64,000 bases of DNA. Origin: a bacterium (lineage in GTDB: Bacteria; Bacillota; Bacilli; Lactobacillales; Streptococcaceae). The stretch covers positions 1 to 64,000 of the forward strand of contig CAJNBS010000007.1 in assembly GCA_905221065.1 (NCBI GenBank), in the 5' to 3' direction. Below, in pieces: positions 20,674 through 32,424 of this stretch. The stretch's first letter is position 1. Every line of letters starts with the position of its first letter. The position numbers and the translations under genes were made by a program. The notes beneath the pieces are model-generated. The model saw nothing but the letters and a program-made list of their open reading frames with translations, made no database searches and was not told the DNA's origin.

Positions 20674-22518
20674 TTATTCTTTTAAGTGATAGGAGTAGCT
20701 AGCGACAACGACGTCCTGGTGCCAACGAAGGGCGTATTTGAGTTTGAGACTCATCTGATTGTGTAGAATATTTTGCCAAGGTTTATTAGGGATAAACTGG
20801 GGTACAAGGACAGTGACTGTATAGTTCTTTTTCTGGGCTTCCTCAGAGATCCGTTTGACATACTTGACAGTAGGCGTGATGATGTCACGGTAGCTGGTCT
20901 TGATATTTTTCAGAGTAATGGTTGGGAAGTAATCGGCAAATTCTTGGAGAATTTCCTGGTCTTTCTCTGCTGTTTCCTTAGTAGAAATGTGCATGGCTAA
21001 GACTTCATCACCGATACTTTGAGCGTAGTTAATGGCTCCAACGCTGACGCGGGTGACATTTCCCACTAGAACGAGAACCAGATTGCCATCGTAGTTACGT
21101 TTTTCGATTCCTTCATAAAGACGCAATTGTTGGGCCACTTTTTGGTAATGACTGTGAATAGCCAAGAAAAGTAGGGTGAGTACGAGAATAATCGGGAAGA
21201 AAGGCCAGATATCACTGAGACGGAAAAAGAGCAGGATCAGCACGATAGCGTAGCAAATGATAGCTCCAAGGATATTGGCAAGGGCAGGTTTTAAGAAATT
21301 TGCCCCCTTTTCTTTTTTCCAATGGCGAATCATCCCAGTCTGAGAAAGGGCAAAGGGAACGAAGACCCCGATAGTATAAAGAGGAATCAAACGTTCGGTA
21401 TTGCCATTAAAAATGAGAAGAAGAATCATAGCCCCAAAGGCAAGAGTTAAGATTCCATTAGAGTAGCCTAGGCGGTCTCCTTTTTCCATAAAGAGATGGG
21501 GCATATATTTGTTTTTAGCCATATTGTAGGCCAGCATAGGGAAGGCTGAAAAGCCGGTATTTGCAGCTACGGCCAAAATCAAGGCTGTGGAGAATTGGAA
21601 GGTATAATAGCCAAGGTGACCTAAGAAAGAATCACCAAGGATGCCTTGAGCCATCTGTGAAAGAATAGTTTCTCCGTGTTGAGGCATAATCCCCATCCAG
21701 TAGTTTAGGAAGGTAATACCAGCAAAAAGAAATCCTAGAATCAGTGACATGATAGTCAAGGTCTGAGCAGCATTCTTTTCTTTCGGAGCCTTGAAAAAGG
21801 GAACGGCATTTGAAATAGCTTCAACTCCTGTCAGAGAGGCAGAGCCACTGGTAAAGGCTCTTAGAATGAGAACGATAGACAGGCTCGGGACGGCATGTCC
21901 AATAGGAGAAGTCGCCTGATAGCTGAGAGATCCTGTCATTAGTTGAAAGATTCCATAGAGCAATAGAAAGACAGTGCTGATGATAAAGAGATAGACAGGA
22001 AACATCAGTGAACTGGCAGATTCTTTCAGCCCCCGTAAGTTCAAGAGCATGAGCAAGCAAACTAGAAAAATGGAGATGTGGAGGTTGTAAGGATGGAGAG
22101 CAGGGAGGGCTGCTGTGATAGCATCAGCTCCAGATGATACCGATACTGCCACAGTCAGCATGTAGTCAACCAGCAGACTACCTCCAGCAATCAAGCCTAG
22201 CTCGGGCGATAGATTTTCTCGAGTAACCATATAGGCCCCTCCTCCCTGAGGATAGGCGTGGATGATTTGACGGTAGGAAACGGTTAAACTAGCTAGAAGT
22301 AGGAGGACAAAAAGGCCAATAGGAAGGCTCCACCATATAGCAAGTGGAGAGAGACTAGCCAAGACGAGGACTACTTGCTCAGGACCATAGGCAATGGAAG
22401 ATAGAGCGTCACTTGACAACATGGCCAAGGCCTGCATTTTTCCCAGCAGCCCTCCCTCACCTTCTGTTAAGGACTTAAGAGGACGACCGATAAATGTATG
22501 TTTTAATTTTGTAAACAT
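20674..22518 (-). CDS. APC-family amino acid permease
   Basis: 614 residues from ATG 22518, which has AAGGAAAA a few bases upstream; an in-frame ATG at 22545 is less well placed. About twelve transmembrane helices occupy residues 35-450. MLSSDALSSIAYGPEQ near 30 and YPQGGGAYMVTRENLSPELG near 85 are typical of the APC superfamily branch that includes Kup-like and basic amino-acid carriers. Residues 455-614 form a soluble C-terminal domain. The substrate is not determinable; potassium or amino acids are both possible. It converges on the AliB-like gene. Confidence 0.82.
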   Translation of the reverse strand: MFTKLKHTFIGRPLKSLTEGEGGLLGKMQALAMLSSDALSSIAYGPEQVVLVLASLSPLAIWWSLPIGLFVLLLLASLTVSYRQIIHAYPQGGGAYMVTRENLSPELGLIAGGSLLVDYMLTVAVSVSSGADAITAALPALHPYNLHISIFLVCLLMLLNLRGLKESASSLMFPVYLFIISTVFLLLYGIFQLMTGSLSYQATSPIGHAVPSLSIVLILRAFTSGSASLTGVEAISNAVPFFKAPKEKNAAQTLTIMSLILGFLFAGITFLNYWMGIMPQHGETILSQMAQGILGDSFLGHLGYYTFQFSTALILAVAANTGFSAFPMLAYNMAKNKYMPHLFMEKGDRLGYSNGILTLAFGAMILLLIFNGNTERLIPLYTIGVFVPFALSQTGMIRHWKKEKGANFLKPALANILGAIICYAIVLILLFFRLSDIWPFFPIILVLTLLFLAIHSHYQKVAQQLRLYEGIEKRNYDGNLVLVLVGNVTRVSVGAINYAQSIGDEVLAMHISTKETAEKDQEILQEFADYFPTITLKNIKTSYRDIITPTVKYVKRISEEAQKKNYTVTVLVPQFIPNKPWQNILHNQMSLKLKYALRWHQDVVVASYSYHLKE

Positions 22519-22751
22519 GGTATTTTCCTTTTCTGAAAATTTCAATAAGTGCTATTATACTGCTTTGAAGGGGCATCGTCAAGCAGAGATGATGGTTTTG
22601 TGAGAGTTCGAGATACCTCAAATGGATTATGTTATATTCTTAGATAAAAATCAATTAAAATTCATAAAACGGTATAATCTATTATAAATAAAAAATAGCA
22701 AATAGGGTAAATTTCTATATATTTTAATTAAAGTAAAAATTAGGCTAAAAG

Positions 22752-22781
22752 TGGACGGGGGGGGGGATTTCATGCTATAAT
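22752..22781 (+). promoter_or_regulatory. Putative phase-variable promoter with G10 tract
   Basis: An extended -10 TGCTATAAT (TATAAT at 22776-22781) is preceded by a run of ten G at 22757-22766. The best -35 candidate is TGGACG at 22752-22757, giving an 18-base spacer that includes the tract. Gain or loss of a G would shift the spacing. The gap 22519-22889 holds nothing else apart from AT-rich sequence, and the surface-protein leader is about 100 bases. Confidence 0.6.
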
Positions 22782-22889
22782 GTACGTAGATTCTTATTAC
22801 CTAAAGTGGATATATTATAATAAAATAGTATTATAGTTTATTGATTTTTTGAATAAGAGGAAATAAAAATAAAAAATGGAGATCAAAGA

Positions 22890-25800
22890 ATGAAGTACAA
22901 GAGAACTCAGAAACGCTCTAAGCAGATGTGGCAGCGTGTGGAAAAATTTTCGATTAGAAAGTTTAGCTTTGGAGCAGCGTCGTGTTTGATTGGGGCATCT
23001 TTAGTTGGGGTAGCTATAAATCCGAACATTGTAGATGCGGCATTTAAACAATTAAATGGCGAGGACGGTATTGTATCATTATATTCTAATTCTGGAGAAA
23101 CGCCTGAAAGTGCAGACGGTATTGAAATCGGATCAAAAGTAAATGTAGATAAAGAAATTGGAATCGATGTAGATTGGTCAGAATATACTCGAGAAAATCC
23201 AATTGTTAAAGTAACTTATACATTTAACGGCGGAGCAGACGGAAGTAGTGTAGCTGGATTTGGAGGACACCGTCCACGTTTCTGGTTCACAACACCAATA
23301 GGATTAAAAGAACCTAAAGAAATTACATTAAAGAAAAATGACGGACGACCAGTTTATGTAATGGAAAGCTGGAATAAAAATAAAAAATTCGGTTCGTTAT
23401 CAAATTCGATTAATTCACGTTTCCAAACAGAAGATGACATCAATAGAGCTTATCGAGAAATTGATTTCCGCGGTAATGATACTAAGTGGGAATCTTATAA
23501 TGAAACAACAGGTGAATCTTACCGAGAATATAGCGGAAGTTTTGCGAATAAGTTTTGGTATCATATTGGGGAAAGAATCTCAGATGATCCATATGAACAA
23601 GCTATTTATGAGAGTTTCCGTACAAACACAAAAACGATGTATGTCGATTGGGAACGTGGAGGAATTGAAAGAGCTACGATAACAGCTGTATATGAAGTTG
23701 CCGATCCAACATTTGGTAATGATCGTAGTACTTTAGAATTCGGAGCAGGGTTCAGAGTTGGTATCGCTCGAATGATGCAACATTACAAAACGGTATTAGC
23801 GCCAGTTCCAAGTCTATATAAATTAAATGAAATTTTTGAACCATCTGTTCCAACACGTGTTGCAGTAAAAGATACAAATAAACTTACAGAAGCAGAAAAA
23901 AATATTGTCAGAGATAGACTTTGGAGTGCAAATAAAGAAAATGTAACTTCGGTAGCGAGAACAGGGAAAAATAAATTAATAGAGAACCTTAAGAGTGAAG
24001 AAAAAACAGAATCTATTCTTATAGGTGATGATGGAACAGCGACAATTATTTATTCTGATAATACTAGAGATGTTATTCCAGGAACATCGCTTGTTTATAA
24101 AGTAACGGAAACGAATACGCATAGACAAGGTGGTGGATATGAGTATGATATTGCTCCAGTAGCTGTGAAAAACATGGATCAAATAACTGAAGAAGAAAAG
24201 AAAGCAGCTATTAAATCATTCTTAAAAGCAAATGGAATCGGAATAGAAAATTTACAATATCATAGTGGTAAAAGTGAACTTGATTTCGAGGGTGGAACGC
24301 TTCAGGATGACAAGGGGAATAAATGGTTTGCCTATGATGAGAATACAGCAAATGCCAAAAATATAGGAACACATATAGGGTTTACACCAAACAGTTCTAC
24401 AGTCATGTTATCAAGAGATGCAGGATTCTCTGGAGTATACACTATTCCAACTTCAGATCTTTATTATAAAGAGGGAACTAGCGCTCTAGATTTAGCTAAA
24501 AAGGATGCTGAAGCGGCAATTGACAACTTAAATTATTTATCTCCAAAAGAAAAACAAGCATTTAAAGAAAAACTAAAAGATAAGACTACTCAAGAAAGTG
24601 TCAATGCTGTTGTAGAAGAAGCTGTTGCTAAAAATAGTGAAAATGAGAGAGCATTAGAAGCTAAAAAACGTGAAGTGAAGGAAAAAATTAATAACAATCC
24701 TTACTTAACAACAGCGGAGAAAAAAGAACTAGTAGATCAAGTGTCAGCGGTAGTAATGACAGACCCAACTGAAGGGACTGCTACTCCTATTGAACATACA
24801 AAAGGTCTTGTCGATAAAGTTTTAGACAAAGCATTAGAAAAAACAAAAGAAAAAGCTAAAGCCATTATTGATGAAATCGATAAAAATGGTGGGCAAGCAG
24901 GATATTTAGAAAATCCAACAGCAGCTCAGTATAAAGAGCAAATTCAAAATGCTACTACCCAGGAAGCAATTACGAAAGTAATTGAAGACGCACAAAATCA
25001 AAAATCTAAAAAAGCTCATGATGCTGAAAAAGCTAAAACAGATGCTTTAAAAGATGAGTATAAGAAGAAAATTGATCAAGTTCCTGGGCTAACAGATGCT
25101 CAAAAAGATGAGTATAAGAAACAAATTGATGCAGCAACAACAAGAGATCAATTGGAAGATATTGTGAAGGATGCGGAAGTAAAAGCGTATCGTGATACAG
25201 CAAAAGCAAAAATTGATGCGCTTGAACACTTAAATGCTGCACAAAAAGCAGAATTAAAAACACAAGTTGATGCTGCAGGAAACAAAGCTGAAGTAGACAA
25301 TATTGTATCAATTGCTCAAGGTTTAGATTCTAAAATGGATTCTCTACAAAAATTAGTAGCAGAAGCTGAAAAAGTAAAAGCCTCTGATAAATATACTAAT
25401 CCTAATGTTCCTAAAGATAAGAAAACTGCTTTTGACACAGCAAATGCTGCTGCTTCAAAAGTAGCTGACAAAACAACAGCTGAACCAGAAAATGCGGCGG
25501 GTACATCAGAAGTAGCTACTCTAATTGATAATCTAGCAAAAGCTATAGAAGCTCTTACAGGTGAAAAAGTTGCTGTACCTGTGTCTAAAGATGCTTTGAA
25601 AGCAGAAATTGACTTGAACACAGATGATGCTGTTAAAAAATCACCAGCTTATGCTAAAGAGGCAAATGGCGCTAAAAAACAAGCTTATGATGATGCCTTA
25701 GTAAATGCTCAAAAAGTGTATGATAATCCAGATGCTACACAAACAGATGTGGATAATGCACTAGATACACTAAAACAAGCACGTTTAGCATTATCAGGTA

Positions 25801-28800
25801 AAGCGGAAGACTTCACTTTAGGAGTGAAAGATGGAGCAGCAAAAATCTCTGTAGAACCTAAAGCAGATGCGGAATTAGCTGAAGCTGATAAAGATGCAGT
25901 AAAAGCTAAAGTAACAGCAAACGGTAATGCTTTAGATGATACTTATACTGTAGAGTATGGAGCTATTGCAGAAAAAGGCGATAAGAAAGTAGTACCAGTA
26001 ACAGTCACTCATGATGGTATTACAAGAACAGTTGACGTCCCAGTAGAAGGGAACACTGCAGCGACAACAACACCGACAGCGGATACAGCAAAACTAAGCG
26101 AAACACCTAAGGTAAATGACATTGTTACAAAAGCAGAAGATGTGAAAGCAATCAAAGATGCTGTAAAAGTACCGGAAGGCACACAAGTAACAGATAAAAA
26201 ATTACTTGACGAAGGAAAAGTAGTAGAAGGTACAGACCAAAGTGCAAACGGTGGAGCAAATAACGCAGGTAAACCAGTAGTTAAAGTAGAAGTAACCTAC
26301 GGAGACGGAAGCAAAGATGTAGTAGAAGTGCCAGTAGAAGGCAACACTGCAGCGACAACAACACCAACAGTAGACACAGCGAAACTAAGCGAAACACCTA
26401 AGGTAAATGACACTATTACAAAACCAGAAGATGTAAAAGCAATCAAAGATGCAGTAAAAGTAACAGTACCAGCAGGACAAAAAGAACCAACAAAATCATT
26501 AGTTGATAATGGTAAAGTAGTAGCTGGAACAGACCAAAGTGCAAACGGTGGAGCAAATAACACAGGAAAACCAGTAGTTAAAGTAGAAGTAACATACGCT
26601 GACGGAAGTAAAGATGTAGTAGAAGTGCCGGTAGAAGGCAACACTGCAGCGACAACAACACCGACAGTAGACACAGCGAAACTAAGCGAAACACCAAAAG
26701 AAAATGACACTATTACAAAACCAGAAGATGTAAAAGCGATCAAAGACGCTGTAAAAGTAATAGTACCAGCAGGACAAGCAGAACCAACAAAAGAATTAGT
26801 TGATGGTGGAAAAGTAGTAGCTGGAACAGACCAAACAGCCAATGGTGGCGCGAACAACACAGGTAAGCCAGTAGTTAAAGTAGAAGTAACCTACGCAGAC
26901 GGAAGCAAAGATGTAGTAGAAGTCCCAGTAGAAGGGAACACTGCAGCGACAACAACACCGACAGCGGATACAGCAAAACTAAGCGAAACACCTAAGGTAA
27001 ATGACATTGTTACAAAAGCAGAAGATGTGAAAGCAATCAAAGATGCAGTAAAAGTAACAGTACCAGCAGGACAAGCAGAACCAACAAAAGAATTAGTTGA
27101 TGGTGGAAAAGTAGTAGCTGGAACAGACCAAAGTGCAAACGGTGGAGCAAATAACACAGGAAAACCAGTAGTTAAAGTAGAAGTAACATACGCTGATGGA
27201 AGTAAAGATGTAGTAGAAGTCCCAGTAGAAGGGAACACTGCAGCGACAACAACACCGACAGCGGATACAGCGAAACTAAGCGAAACACCTAAGGTAAATG
27301 ATACTATTACAAAAGCAGAAGATGTGAAAGCAATCAAAGACGCTGTAAAAGTAACAGTACCAGCAGGACAAGCAGAACCAACAAAAGAATTAGTTGACGG
27401 TGGAAAAGTAGTAGCTGGAACAGACCAAACAGCCAATGGTGGCGCGAACAACACAGGTAAACCAGTAGTTAAAGTAGAAGTAACCTACGCAGACGGAAGT
27501 AAAGATGTAGTGGAAGTACCAGTAGAAGGGACTGATGCTGCAAAAGCAACTCCAAAAGTGAAAGAAGAAATCACAGCAGGAGAAGTACCAGTAAGTGTCG
27601 ATCCGGCTACAGATAAAAAAGTAGCTGAAGCAGATAAAAAAGCAATTACAGAAGCTGTAGTAGTACCAGAAGGACAACCACAACCGGCAGACAAACAAGT
27701 TAAAAATGACGGAACAATCGTGGCTGGAACAGGAGCGAATGCAGGTAAGAAAGTAGTTGTCGTAGAAGTTACTTATGGTGACGGATCAAAAGATGAAATC
27801 GAAGTACCAGTGAGAAAAGAAAAAGATGCAGACAAAGCGACTCCAAAAGTGAAAGAAGAAATCACAGCAGGAGAAGTGCCAGTAAGCGTAGATCCATCTA
27901 AAGACAAACAAGTAGCGGAAGCAGACAAAAAAGCAATTACAGATGCAGTAGTAGTACCAGAAGGACAACCACAACCGACAGACAAACAAGTTAAAAATGA
28001 CGGAGCAATCGTGGATGGAACAGGAGCGAATGCAGGTAAGAAAGTAGTTGTAGTAGAAGTTACATATCCAGATGGATCAAAAGATGAAATCGAAGTACCT
28101 GTAAGAAAAGCTACTGATAAGGAAAAAGCCAAAGCTGACTTAACAGAAGCAGCTAACGCGGAAAAAGGTGAAATCGGAGGAGATACTACTCTAACTGATA
28201 AAGAAAAAGAAGACTTGAAAGCCAAAGTAGATGAAGTTAAGAAAGCTGCAGAAGAAAAGATTAATAATGCGAAAACATCTGAAGAAATAGCGAAAGCGAC
28301 AGAAGAAGGTAAAAAAGCAATCGCAGATGTTTATAATCCACAAACTGCTAAAGGTCAATCAACAAATGTCTTCAAGCCAGAGTTAGACTTACAAACTGCT
28401 TTAGTATCCGGAAAAGTAACTGTAGAAAAAGGTAAAGACTTAACTGACGAAGAAATCCTAAAACAATTAGCACTAGCTGATGGAGTAACAGCGAAAGTTA
28501 TTTCTAAACCAACTACAACTGAAACAGGAACTAAAGAAGCAGAAGTGGAAGTAACGCTCGCGGATGGTAACAAAGTAACTGTGAAAGTACCGGTTGAAGT
28601 AGTTGATTCCTTAGATACAGCTGATAAAGATAACGATCTTGCTAAGGCGAAAGAAGATGCTAAAAAACAAGTAGAAGAAGCTGCCAAAGCTAAAATCACT
28701 GAAATCAAGAAGGATACAGGTTTAACTGAAGAGCAAAAACAAAAAGCTGAAGAAGCAATCAATAAAGCTAAAGATGAAGCAAACAAAGCTATTGACGAAG

Positions 28801-31241
28801 CATCATCAGCAGGAACAGCTAAGCAAATTGCAGATCAAGCAAAAGAAAATATTGAAAAATATGATCCAAAAGCTGATACAGAAGTTAAGAAACCAGATGT
28901 AACAAACCTTGATGAAGAAAAAGCGAAAGCAAAAGCTGAGATACTAGAAGAAGCTCAAAAACGCATTGACGAAATCAAGAACAATAAAGATTTATCAGAC
29001 GAAGCGAAACAAAAAGCTATCGAAGAAATCAATAAGGCCAAAGATAAAGCGATTGAAGACATCAATAAAGGTCAATCTAAAGATGAAATCAATGCGGCGA
29101 AAGAAGCTGGTATTCATAAGATAAATGAAGTTCAACCAGAGGGCTCTATTGCATCTAAATTCGAACCGAAAGTTCCTGAAAACAAAGTGGAAGTGGAAAA
29201 TCCAGCAAAACTTTCAGATAAAGAAAGAGAACAAGTTCGTCAAAACATCGAAGGTGCGAACACATTCCCAGATGGAACAACAGTAGAAGTCAAACCAGAT
29301 GGAACAGCTGTTATCACATATAAAGATGGTTCAAGTGATACTATTTCTAAAGATAAATTAGCAACACCAGCTAAGAAAGAAACTGGAACAATTGCTTCTA
29401 GAACCGAGCCAGTTATCCCAGAAAGAACACAAGTAGGAAATACTACGAAGTTAACACCAGAAGAACAAGCTGCGGTTAAAAAAGCAGTTGAAGGTGCGAA
29501 TAACTTCCCAGCAGGAACTACAGTAGAAGTAAGACCTGATGGAACAGTAGTCATCACCTATCCAGATAAATCTGTAGATACAATAACAGGGGATAAACTT
29601 GTTGAAAAAGGAAGTAAACAAGAAACTCCAAAAGTTCAGACAGATGCAGAGAAGAACCCAGCGCAAATTCCAGGAAACTTTGTACCTGTTGAAAATACTC
29701 ACAACTTGACACAGGCGGAGCAAGATACAGTAGCAGCTAAGGTTAAAGAAGCAAATCCAGCGGCGACAGCTGTTAAGGTATCTAAAGATGGAACAGCGAC
29801 ATTGACATACTCAGATGGTTCAGTAAACACAATTCCAGGAACAAGTCTAGTAGTAGCCAAAGATACTGAAAATGAAGTTGCAACACAAGCTGCGCAAAAT
29901 CCAGCTGTGGTGCCAGCAACTACAGAAGTTGGAAATGCTCATAGCTTAACACCTGAGGAACAAGCTGCAGTAACAGCTAAAGTACAAGTAGCCAACCCAG
30001 CGGCGACAGCTGTTAAGGTATCTAAAGATGGAACAGCGACATTGACATACTCAGACGGTTCAGTAAATACAATTCCAGGAACAAGTCTAGTAGTTCAAAA
30101 AGAGGAAACTTCAACACAAGAGCAACCAACAATCGCAGAGAAGACAAAAGTAATCATCCCAGCTAACCCTACAAAAGTAGCAGAGGCTACAAGATTAACA
30201 GATGCAGAAAAAGAAGCTGTTAAAAAAGCTGTAGTAGAAGCAAATGGATTCGGAAGCGATGTGAATGTAGAAGTAGCCGGAGATGGCACAGCGACAATCG
30301 TCTTTAAAGATGGTTCAGCTGTTACAATTCCAGGAAATCAATTGGTAGCACAAGATCCAAAAGCACAAGATAGCACTAAACCAGCTGCTGAAAAATCAAC
30401 TGTTAAAGCGCCTGCTCAAAGAGTAGATGTAAAAGATATAACTCATTTAACAGATGAAGAAAAAGAAAAAGTTAAGGTTGCTATTTTACAAGCAAATGGT
30501 TCAGCATTAGATGGAGCGACAATCAATGTAGCCGGAGATGGCACAGCGACAATCACATTCCCAGATGGTTCAGTAGTGACAATTCTAGGAAAAGATACAG
30601 TTCAACAATTTGCAAAAGGTGAATCTGTAACTCAAGAAACGACACCAGAATATACTCCAGAATCAACACCAGGTGGAGATAACGGAGGGAATACTGGAAG
30701 CTCAGATGCTAATGCGAATGCAGGCGGTGGTAGCAATGCAGGCGAACCAGCTAACACAGGTTCACAAATCCCAGCTCAATCACAAGCTTCTAAGCAATTA
30801 GCAAATGCAAAAGAATCAGCTAAAAATGTCATTGAAAAAGCTGCCAAGGACAAGCAGGATGAAATCAATGGTGCACCGCTTTCTGATAAAGAAAAAGCAG
30901 AACTTTTAGCAAGAGTGGAAGCAGAAAAACAAGCAGCTCTCAAAGAGATTGAAAATGCGAAAACTGTGGAAGATGTGAAGGAAGCAGAAACGATTGGAGT
31001 GCAAGCAATTGCTAGTGTTACAGTTCCTAAGAAACCAGTGGCTCCTAATGCTGCGCCTCAGGCAACAAGTGCACCGCAAGCAACTGCAGGAACAATGCAA
31101 GATGTTACCTACCAGTCACCTGCTGGCAAACAATTACCTAACACAGGTTCAGCATCAAGCGCAGCACTTGCTAGTCTTGGTCTAGTGGCGGCAACCAGTG
31201 GTTTTGCTTTGCTAGGAAGAAAGGCTAGACGTAGAAAATAG
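22890..31241 (+). CDS. Giant LPXTG-anchored repeat surface protein
   Basis: 2783 residues, intact. ATG 22890 has TGGAGA at 22877-22882. The N-terminus is a YSIRK-type signal (FSIRKFSFGAAS) with cleavage near residue 50. Residues 50-310 are a unique domain I do not recognise. Then come GA-like three-helix modules (about 530-805), two FIVAR-like modules (810-970), five near-identical 97-99-residue repeats (1055-1547), two 97-residue repeats ending DGSKDEIEVPVRK (about 1553-1746), DUF1542-like helical modules (about 1745-2080) and six related beta modules (about 2091-2573). A final helical module precedes LPNTG (2749-2753), a hydrophobic segment and a RKARRRK tail. Sortase A would anchor it to the cell wall. 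An adhesin or albumin-binding role is inference. Confidence 0.93.
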   Translation: MKYKRTQKRSKQMWQRVEKFSIRKFSFGAASCLIGASLVGVAINPNIVDAAFKQLNGEDGIVSLYSNSGETPESADGIEIGSKVNVDKEIGIDVDWSEYTRENPIVKVTYTFNGGADGSSVAGFGGHRPRFWFTTPIGLKEPKEITLKKNDGRPVYVMESWNKNKKFGSLSNSINSRFQTEDDINRAYREIDFRGNDTKWESYNETTGESYREYSGSFANKFWYHIGERISDDPYEQAIYESFRTNTKTMYVDWERGGIERATITAVYEVADPTFGNDRSTLEFGAGFRVGIARMMQHYKTVLAPVPSLYKLNEIFEPSVPTRVAVKDTNKLTEAEKNIVRDRLWSANKENVTSVARTGKNKLIENLKSEEKTESILIGDDGTATIIYSDNTRDVIPGTSLVYKVTETNTHRQGGGYEYDIAPVAVKNMDQITEEEKKAAIKSFLKANGIGIENLQYHSGKSELDFEGGTLQDDKGNKWFAYDENTANAKNIGTHIGFTPNSSTVMLSRDAGFSGVYTIPTSDLYYKEGTSALDLAKKDAEAAIDNLNYLSPKEKQAFKEKLKDKTTQESVNAVVEEAVAKNSENERALEAKKREVKEKINNNPYLTTAEKKELVDQVSAVVMTDPTEGTATPIEHTKGLVDKVLDKALEKTKEKAKAIIDEIDKNGGQAGYLENPTAAQYKEQIQNATTQEAITKVIEDAQNQKSKKAHDAEKAKTDALKDEYKKKIDQVPGLTDAQKDEYKKQIDAATTRDQLEDIVKDAEVKAYRDTAKAKIDALEHLNAAQKAELKTQVDAAGNKAEVDNIVSIAQGLDSKMDSLQKLVAEAEKVKASDKYTNPNVPKDKKTAFDTANAAASKVADKTTAEPENAAGTSEVATLIDNLAKAIEALTGEKVAVPVSKDALKAEIDLNTDDAVKKSPAYAKEANGAKKQAYDDALVNAQKVYDNPDATQTDVDNALDTLKQARLALSGKAEDFTLGVKDGAAKISVEPKADAELAEADKDAVKAKVTANGNALDDTYTVEYGAIAEKGDKKVVPVTVTHDGITRTVDVPVEGNTAATTTPTADTAKLSETPKVNDIVTKAEDVKAIKDAVKVPEGTQVTDKKLLDEGKVVEGTDQSANGGANNAGKPVVKVEVTYGDGSKDVVEVPVEGNTAATTTPTVDTAKLSETPKVNDTITKPEDVKAIKDAVKVTVPAGQKEPTKSLVDNGKVVAGTDQSANGGANNTGKPVVKVEVTYADGSKDVVEVPVEGNTAATTTPTVDTAKLSETPKENDTITKPEDVKAIKDAVKVIVPAGQAEPTKELVDGGKVVAGTDQTANGGANNTGKPVVKVEVTYADGSKDVVEVPVEGNTAATTTPTADTAKLSETPKVNDIVTKAEDVKAIKDAVKVTVPAGQAEPTKELVDGGKVVAGTDQSANGGANNTGKPVVKVEVTYADGSKDVVEVPVEGNTAATTTPTADTAKLSETPKVNDTITKAEDVKAIKDAVKVTVPAGQAEPTKELVDGGKVVAGTDQTANGGANNTGKPVVKVEVTYADGSKDVVEVPVEGTDAAKATPKVKEEITAGEVPVSVDPATDKKVAEADKKAITEAVVVPEGQPQPADKQVKNDGTIVAGTGANAGKKVVVVEVTYGDGSKDEIEVPVRKEKDADKATPKVKEEITAGEVPVSVDPSKDKQVAEADKKAITDAVVVPEGQPQPTDKQVKNDGAIVDGTGANAGKKVVVVEVTYPDGSKDEIEVPVRKATDKEKAKADLTEAANAEKGEIGGDTTLTDKEKEDLKAKVDEVKKAAEEKINNAKTSEEIAKATEEGKKAIADVYNPQTAKGQSTNVFKPELDLQTALVSGKVTVEKGKDLTDEEILKQLALADGVTAKVISKPTTTETGTKEAEVEVTLADGNKVTVKVPVEVVDSLDTADKDNDLAKAKEDAKKQVEEAAKAKITEIKKDTGLTEEQKQKAEEAINKAKDEANKAIDEASSAGTAKQIADQAKENIEKYDPKADTEVKKPDVTNLDEEKAKAKAEILEEAQKRIDEIKNNKDLSDEAKQKAIEEINKAKDKAIEDINKGQSKDEINAAKEAGIHKINEVQPEGSIASKFEPKVPENKVEVENPAKLSDKEREQVRQNIEGANTFPDGTTVEVKPDGTAVITYKDGSSDTISKDKLATPAKKETGTIASRTEPVIPERTQVGNTTKLTPEEQAAVKKAVEGANNFPAGTTVEVRPDGTVVITYPDKSVDTITGDKLVEKGSKQETPKVQTDAEKNPAQIPGNFVPVENTHNLTQAEQDTVAAKVKEANPAATAVKVSKDGTATLTYSDGSVNTIPGTSLVVAKDTENEVATQAAQNPAVVPATTEVGNAHSLTPEEQAAVTAKVQVANPAATAVKVSKDGTATLTYSDGSVNTIPGTSLVVQKEETSTQEQPTIAEKTKVIIPANPTKVAEATRLTDAEKEAVKKAVVEANGFGSDVNVEVAGDGTATIVFKDGSAVTIPGNQLVAQDPKAQDSTKPAAEKSTVKAPAQRVDVKDITHLTDEEKEKVKVAILQANGSALDGATINVAGDGTATITFPDGSVVTILGKDTVQQFAKGESVTQETTPEYTPESTPGGDNGGNTGSSDANANAGGGSNAGEPANTGSQIPAQSQASKQLANAKESAKNVIEKAAKDKQDEINGAPLSDKEKAELLARVEAEKQAALKEIENAKTVEDVKEAETIGVQAIASVTVPKKPVAPNAAPQATSAPQATAGTMQDVTYQSPAGKQLPNTGSASSAALASLGLVAATSGFALLGRKARRRK
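26052..27530 (+). repeat. Five in-frame tandem repeats, 291-297 bp
   Basis: Units start at 26052, 26343, 26640, 26937 and 27234, each with AACACTGCAGCGACAACAAC. Unit 1 is 291 bp and units 2-5 are 297 bp. Each encodes 97-99 residues running from NTAATTTPT to DVVEVPVEG. Several differ by only a few bases, so copy number could change by recombination. Confidence 0.95.
27546..28127 (+). repeat. Two tandem 291-bp repeats
   Basis: Units start at 27546 and 27837 and encode ATPKVKEEITAGEVPVSVDP to EIEVPVRK. They are nearly identical to each other and related to the upstream 297-bp family by the shared VTY-DGSKD-EVPV end, resembling Rib-type stalk repeats. Confidence 0.85.
29164..30610 (+). repeat. 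Six diverged beta-module repeats
   Basis: Six modules of roughly 75-85 residues share the pattern LT-x2-E-x5-V then DGTATITY-DGS-x-TIPG. A segment of about 100 bp at 29757-29857 recurs at 29998-30098, exactly 240 bp later, with two silent differences, indicating recent duplication. Two weaker relatives lie near residues 312-410 in the N-terminal part. Confidence 0.75.
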
Positions 31242-31650: not shown

Positions 31651-32424
31651 ATGATTTTTGATACACATACACACTTGAATGTAGAAGAATTTGCTGGTCG
31701 TGAGGCAGAAGAAATTGCCTTGGCTGCGGAGATGGGTGTGACGCAGATGAATATTGTTGGTTTTGATAAACCGACGATTGAGCGTGCTTTGGAGTTGGTG
31801 GATGAGTACGACCAACTCTATGCGACAATAGGTTGGCATCCGACAGAGGCAGGGACTTATACAGAGGAGATTGAAGACTACTTGCTTGATAAACTCAAAC
31901 ATCCCAAGATTGTTGCCTTGGGTGAGATTGGTTTGGACTACCATTGGATGACAGCGTCAAAAGAGGTGCAGGAGCAGGTTTTTCGCCGTCAGATTCAGTT
32001 ATCTAAGGACTTGGGTTTGCCTTTTGTGGTCCATACCCGTGATGCGCTGGAAGATACCTATGAGATTATCAAGAGCGAGGGCGTTGGTTCTCGTGGTGGC
32101 ATCATGCATTCTTTCTCAGGAAGTCTTGAATGGGCAGAGAAGTTTGTCGCGCTTGGTATGACCATTTCCTTCTCAGGAGTGGTGACTTTTAAGAAGGCAA
32201 CCGATATCCAAGAGGCGGCTAGAGAACTTCCTTTGGACAAGATTTTGGTGGAGACGGATGCGCCTTACTTGGCTCCTGTTCCTAAACGTGGTCGTGAAAA
32301 CAAAACAGCCTACACTCGCTATGTAGTAGATTTTATCGCGGATTTGCGTGGTATGACGACAGAAGAGCTAGCGGCGGCAACGACTGCAAATGCAGAGCGC
32401 ATTTTTGGATTGGACAACAAGTAA
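31651..32424 (+). CDS. tatD: TatD-family metal-dependent deoxyribonuclease
   Basis: 257 residues, metal-dependent TIM-barrel hydrolase. Metal ligands are visible in FDTHTHLNV (residues 3-11), ALGEIGLDYHW (about 89-99), VVHTRDA near 129, IMHSFSG near 150 and ETDAPYLAP near 206. TatD enzymes have 3'-5' exonuclease or DNA-repair activity. It overlaps rnmV by one base (TAATG), a conserved pairing in Firmicutes. GAGG and AGAAGAG precede the ATG. Confidence 0.92.
   Translation: MIFDTHTHLNVEEFAGREAEEIALAAEMGVTQMNIVGFDKPTIERALELVDEYDQLYATIGWHPTEAGTYTEEIEDYLLDKLKHPKIVALGEIGLDYHWMTASKEVQEQVFRRQIQLSKDLGLPFVVHTRDALEDTYEIIKSEGVGSRGGIMHSFSGSLEWAEKFVALGMTISFSGVVTFKKATDIQEAARELPLDKILVETDAPYLAPVPKRGRENKTAYTRYVVDFIADLRGMTTEELAAATTANAERIFGLDNK

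Follow-up and report, generated by a model that had tools for sequence, protein, structure and literature searches.

The promoter predicted for a very large surface protein gene carries ten consecutive G between its -35 and -10 elements. The best explanation, to which we give roughly four chances in five, is that this tract is an evolved slippery spacer, in which slippage would tune the -35/-10 distance and so vary transcription of the giant protein. The window (the whole 64-kb stretch of DNA that was analysed) comes, judged by its relatives, from a mitis-group streptococcus, and the closest promoter found is that of Streptococcus mitis (L003), with 92% identity. An initial annotation of this DNA had interpreted the tract as a likely site of phase variation. 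That interpretation is supported by sequence comparison, as tract length differs between relatives and the arrangement recurs in the genus, mostly before genes with surface signatures. These findings make it likely that the bacterium switches its surface through slippage in its DNA.

The promoter and its locus

The elements of the locus are as follows.

20674..22545, minus strand: amino acid permease, divergent neighbour (domain matches)
22752..22757, plus strand: -35 hexamer TGGACG, 4/6 match to TTGACA (promoter scan and alignment)
22757..22766, plus strand: G10 homopolymer in the spacer, 9-11 G across 10 orthologous promoters
22773..22781, plus strand: extended -10, TGCTATAAT (promoter scan and alignment)
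22788, plus strand: putative transcription start, an A 7 nt past the -10 (from promoter geometry)
22878..22881, plus strand: ribosome binding site GGAG, 8 nt before the ATG (sequence; unchanged across the ortholog alignment)
22890..31241, plus strand: surface protein, 2783 aa (ORF and domain matches)
31651..32424, plus strand: TatD-family DNase, right-hand neighbour (window and eight fetched relatives)

Read off the window sequence, the G run occupies exactly 22757-22766, and its first G doubles as the final base of the -35 hexamer. The location between TGGACG and an extended -10 that had been proposed for it was confirmed by a promoter scan, which independently reported TGGACG-18-TATAAT at 22752-22781, with 10/12 consensus matches and a TG preceding the -10. 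The 1.8-kb region scanned is rich in promoter-like sites (nine, vs 5.1 +/- 2.3 in shuffles), so that the consensus match constitutes by itself weak evidence. Promoter geometry gives a putative 5' leader of about 100 nt, and the scan found no terminator-like site from the promoter to the ATG (between 22782 and 22889). The ortholog alignment also displays a conserved AT-rich sequence upstream of the -35.

As the initial annotation stated, the tract is conspicuous in AT-rich surroundings. The flanking 330 bases have 25% GC, no other run of G or C longer than 6 exists in the window, and no other run of any base is longer than 8, the next longest being 8. G8 is found nowhere else in the 64 kb on either strand; its three overlapping matches in the window compare with a shuffle mean of 0.49, at least three being reached in 5/100 shuffles. 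By run statistics, G runs of at least 10 are expected about 0.017 times on the plus strand of the entire window and about 0.00015 times in the 330 bases around the tract.

The gene behind the promoter had been described as encoding a very large exposed protein, and the prediction agrees: the 2783-aa product has a YSIRK signal (aa 17-40), an LPXTG anchor (aa 2743-2781), GA modules, FIVAR, DUF1542 and Rib/aRib repeats. For the permease a separate promoter-like site exists, TTGACG-17-TATAAT at 22582-22554. In the window and in L003 the permease gene precedes the giant gene; in L004-L010 a solute-binding protein gene takes that place. TatD follows the giant gene in all eight genomes for which the right side was fetched. 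The giant gene and its promoter look like an accessory unit. Orthologous ORFs measure 2329-3187 aa in seven of the fetched genomes; in the other (L127, G140) the ORF stops after 713 aa without an anchor, as in a truncated or interrupted allele. We also found an empty site (L133, G001:C1 near 714525) in which permease and TatD are adjacent, about 130 nt apart, without the giant gene.

Tract length in orthologous promoters

A tight ortholog pattern matched only 1/284 Streptococcus genomes because the flanks vary, and it was replaced by a DNA search of the 284. This gave any match in 24 genomes: eight close, three distant (G169, G105 and G238) and 13 short and weak, the latter being left out of the relatives. 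The eight close genomes were joined to 8 loci from one other search and, as seven of them are the same contigs as L004-L010, the set comprises ten distinct promoters including the window.

Counting the tract in related genomes was a check suggested in the initial annotation. The tract was kept in 10/10 orthologous promoters, with 9 G in four (L003, L005, L009 and G140), 10 G in five (the window, L004, L006, L008 and L010) and 11 G in one (L007); the compared genomes are one per species, these length differences are thus between strains, and a one-G assembly error is possible in any single genome. TGGAC upstream and TG and TATAATGTACG downstream are invariant in all ten aligned promoters. Across 329 aligned upstream bases, L005 and L010 are separated by 1 substitution, but L005 has 9 G and L010 has 10. 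With the tract left out of the tree, a minimum of five changes in length has to be assumed; this figure is an estimate, since only two of the seven inner branches are firmly supported. In five of the eight loci, the first 300 residues of the protein are down to 51-55% identity with those of the window, so that the promoter and its tract are much more conserved than the protein.

The distant relatives, with 67-78% DNA identity, also have the tract at this position. In L022 (G238), TTGAC is followed by G11 and ATTTATAGTAAAAT. Two G169 contigs terminate exactly at G10, and in the G105 scaffold an N run adjoins a broken G run. Such breaks are what a hard-to-assemble tract would give, and do not constitute proof of heterogeneity.

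Homopolymers mutate quickly, and the tract might be a neutral, fast-mutating G run that is carried along with the gene and has no regulatory consequence, all the more if the extended -10 does not need a precise spacer. Its retention in all ten orthologues, and at the corresponding position in the more distant relatives, argues against this explanation, which is considered again below.

Recurrence of poly-G spacer promoters in Streptococcus

The pattern G8-N3-14-TATAAT occurs in 40/284 Streptococcus genomes, at 55 places once overlapping rows are merged; this exact pattern is absent from the other 244, and its reversed form was found in 0/284. The 55 places are an undercount, since the pattern misses tracts of 8-10 G abutting TATAAT (e.g. 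L202). In 38 of 53 places a TTGA begins 4-16 nt ahead of the G run, vs 5, 3 and 9 of 53 in shifted windows of equal width (two of the 55 had no upstream sequence), so that the tract really lies between -35 and -10. Tract lengths go from 8 to 18. When the best -35 hexamer was sought at 13-24 nt, spacers of 15-24 were inferred in the 47/55 places with a recognisable -35, 23 of the 47 being at 17 or 18.

These ranges bear on the idea of a tract that is fixed as a structural element in a strong promoter, with a length polymorphism due to noise or assembly error. The spacers of 17-19 at the giant-gene locus are indeed all plausible for activity, but lengths of 8-18 and inferred spacers of 15-24 across the 55 promoters are too wide for one optimum, and the five or more changes on the ortholog tree also speak against it. 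We regard a fixed element as highly improbable.

With the gap widened to 15-44 nt, matches were found in 7/284 genomes, in three of them because the same tract has a nearer TATAAT as well, vs 27/284 for the reversed control, with TAATAT placed 15-44 nt upstream of G8. AT-rich hexamers are therefore common near such tracts, and the pattern discriminates only at the close distance. Across the order, 8/246 genomes match, that is 5/34 Streptococcus and 3/212 others, and the reversed control at 5/246 places the three non-Streptococcus matches at background. No surface-protein gene was recognised behind these three, two of which lie across long open frames. Streptococcus (40/284) and the other genera of the order (3/212) differ with p = 1.5e-7.

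Poly-C in the same position matched 9/284 genomes, and its reversed control 5/284. A poly-C equivalent was rejected: six of the nine share C8 or C9, GAAAAA and TATAAT, and the one inspected (G159, L136) is a G13 on the opposite strand, ahead of a secreted-protein-like ORF. On these counts, the arrangement favours G on the coding strand. The shared C8-C9/GAAAAA/TATAAT element is present in G072, G090, G092, G101, G159 and G198.

Genes behind the promoters

Surface-protein signatures, defined as an N-terminal signal or a C-terminal sorting signal, were found in 47/55 downstream genes vs 0/38 control promoters (Fisher p = 1.5e-18). Per protein cluster the counts are 16/24 vs 0/38 (p = 2.7e-9), these p values treating kinship only through protein clustering. 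As controls, every fourth of 150 consensus promoters among the matches listed was taken, 38 in all and from nine of the same genomes; 34 of them had an ORF under the rule used, and the count includes all 38. The giant-gene locus of relatives accounts for eight of the 55 places. No surface signature was present at eight of the 55, seven by the classifier plus L087, which was rejected as a surface protein on its Pfam assignment as an MFS transporter.

Pfam was run on 20 representatives, each truncated at 900 aa; the surface set supplied 14 of them and the rest 6. YSIRK, KxYKxGKxW, FctA, pilin-backbone, SpaA or Gram_pos_anchor were matched by 13/14 of the surface set, the sole exception being L099, which has an LPATG motif, and by 0/6 of the non-surface representatives.

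A neutral run carried along with one gene does not account well for a spacer position that recurs with a reversed control of zero, nor for the association with surface genes, and together with the ortholog data this leads us to consider neutrality quite improbable. We find it reasonably probable that Streptococcus has a class of poly-G spacer promoters that arose repeatedly on different surface genes, in which case the coat of wall proteins would be a combinatorial set of independently slipping promoters. This reading is based on the 16/24 clusters, which include YSIRK, serine-rich-repeat-type KxYKxGKxW and pilin genes, and on the presence of up to four such promoters per genome by the strict pattern.

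Proposed mechanism and relation to known systems

In the slippery-spacer model, replication slippage would add or remove a single G in the tract, and each such change would shift the -35/-10 distance by one base, so that 9, 10 and 11 G correspond to spacings of 17, 18 and 19; the arithmetic given for this in the initial annotation is right. RNA polymerase would use these spacings with differing efficiency, and transcription of the giant protein would vary heritably and reversibly between cells, as phase variation or as graded expression. The benefit may be immunity avoidance or adhesion tuning. Both the change in expression and its reversibility within a clone are what we infer from sequence. 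A -10 of the extended TGn type might give graded expression instead of an on/off switch; it could also make the promoter tolerant of spacing, which is a point against slippage control. The best -35/-10 spacing is 17, and 9 G is therefore predicted to be the strongest state and the 10 G of the window an intermediate one. The window promoter would then be one of a set of poly-G spacer promoters preceding YSIRK, KxYKxGKxW and pilin-type genes.

Variable expression through -10/-35 spacing is reported for porA of Neisseria meningitidis (van der Ende et al. 1995, J Bacteriol 177:2475, as listed in the references of PMC5084427). The locus described here resembles meningococcal porA in having a homopolymer between -35 and -10 and a surface product, in our case a predicted one, and, as in a spacer promoter of the porA type, the tract is polymorphic among related strains while its flanks are conserved. 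Unlike porA, which is a Gram-negative porin, the product here is a sortase-anchored giant adhesin-like protein of a Firmicute, and the arrangement also precedes many other surface genes of the genus. The homopolymer of the porA spacer is reportedly poly-G. A slipped-strand change of the -35/-10 spacing, as in porA, is the parsimonious reading.

Other streptococcal repeats act in different ways. In S. pyogenes R28, the transcript level changes with one-base indels of a T tract, which the authors attribute, in their model, to the binding or spacing of the Spy1337 regulator's sites (excerpts of PMC7098570). According to the same excerpts, the T tracts of R28/Spy1337 and GBS bca are, as the tract here, homopolymers that precede the gene of a streptococcal LPXTG protein bearing Rib-type repeats; they differ in base and lie between divergent genes, with a regulator-site spacing model, and those excerpts contain no description of the T tract as a -35/-10 spacer. 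At the window locus we found a G tract and a permease, and not the T homopolymer and divergent regulator gene of the R28/bca type.

The tract could, as proposed for the R28 T tract, shift the spacing or binding of a regulator and not of RNA polymerase. The R28 transcript does differ between 9T and 10T strains (PMC7098570, excerpts), the AT-rich sequence upstream of the -35 is conserved, and the six streptococcal G tracts without an adjacent -10 that are described below precede YSIRK or KxYKxGKxW genes. However, the tract of the window lies strictly between -35 and -10, its divergent neighbour is a permease and not an AraC-type regulator, and the recurrent pattern is fixed on the -35/-10 geometry. 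We consider a regulator-based effect improbable, and slippage of the promoter spacer the preferred reading.

In S. gallolyticus pil1/pil3, GCAGA repeats in a leader peptide act on a terminator (excerpts of PMC3894217). Repeat-number variation at a streptococcal surface gene is common to both cases, and there it produces phase variation (same excerpts). A leader-peptide attenuator of the pil1 type was not found at the window locus, the tract being upstream of the -10 and 22782-22889 being free of terminator-like sites. The spacing mechanism is already known from meningococcal porA, and its poly-G version on streptococcal surface genes was not found in the literature searched, as no report of poly-G spacer promoters on such genes was among the matches listed (open-licence literature, titles and abstract openings).

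Streptococcal surface proteins serve as adhesins and are considered for vaccines. Should their promoters slip at a G tract, a single culture would not be representative of expression in the population, and an antigen could be lost rapidly and reversibly. Tract length can be extracted from reads that already exist, which would permit a cheap survey of phase state across carriage and disease collections, and at least eight G placed 3-14 nt before TATAAT provide a simple rule for predicting phase-variable surface genes in the genus.

Other G tracts in streptococcal genomes

Eight genomes contain 34 further tracts of nine or more G, of which 32 were inspected and read by eye. In nine, a near-consensus -10 follows within 5 nt, and all but one of the nine precede surface-type or secreted-type N-termini. 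Six, of G9-G12 (L002, L139, L209, L214, L216 and L218), precede YSIRK or KxYKxGKxW genes and have no -10 directly after the tract, while L136 and L221 are ahead of genes for further proteins that are secreted or anchored. For eight tracts, no connection with a surface gene is evident. The inspected tracts indicate that the spacer promoters belong to a wider set of G-tract loci.

Five tracts, of G10-13, lie inside coding regions of surface-type genes in mitis-group genomes (L137, L159, L210, L211 and L213), and in the gene common to L137, L159 and L210 the tract length varies between genomes; translational switching is possible at such positions. The remaining two, a G9 in L203 (G085) and a G10 in L220 (G161), are found near base 200 of their stretches, counted in the direction of the G run, beside or in methyltransferase-like ORFs, where phase-variable methylation is possible. 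The ORF of L220 carries a DPPYNT motif and is presumably a DNA methyltransferase.
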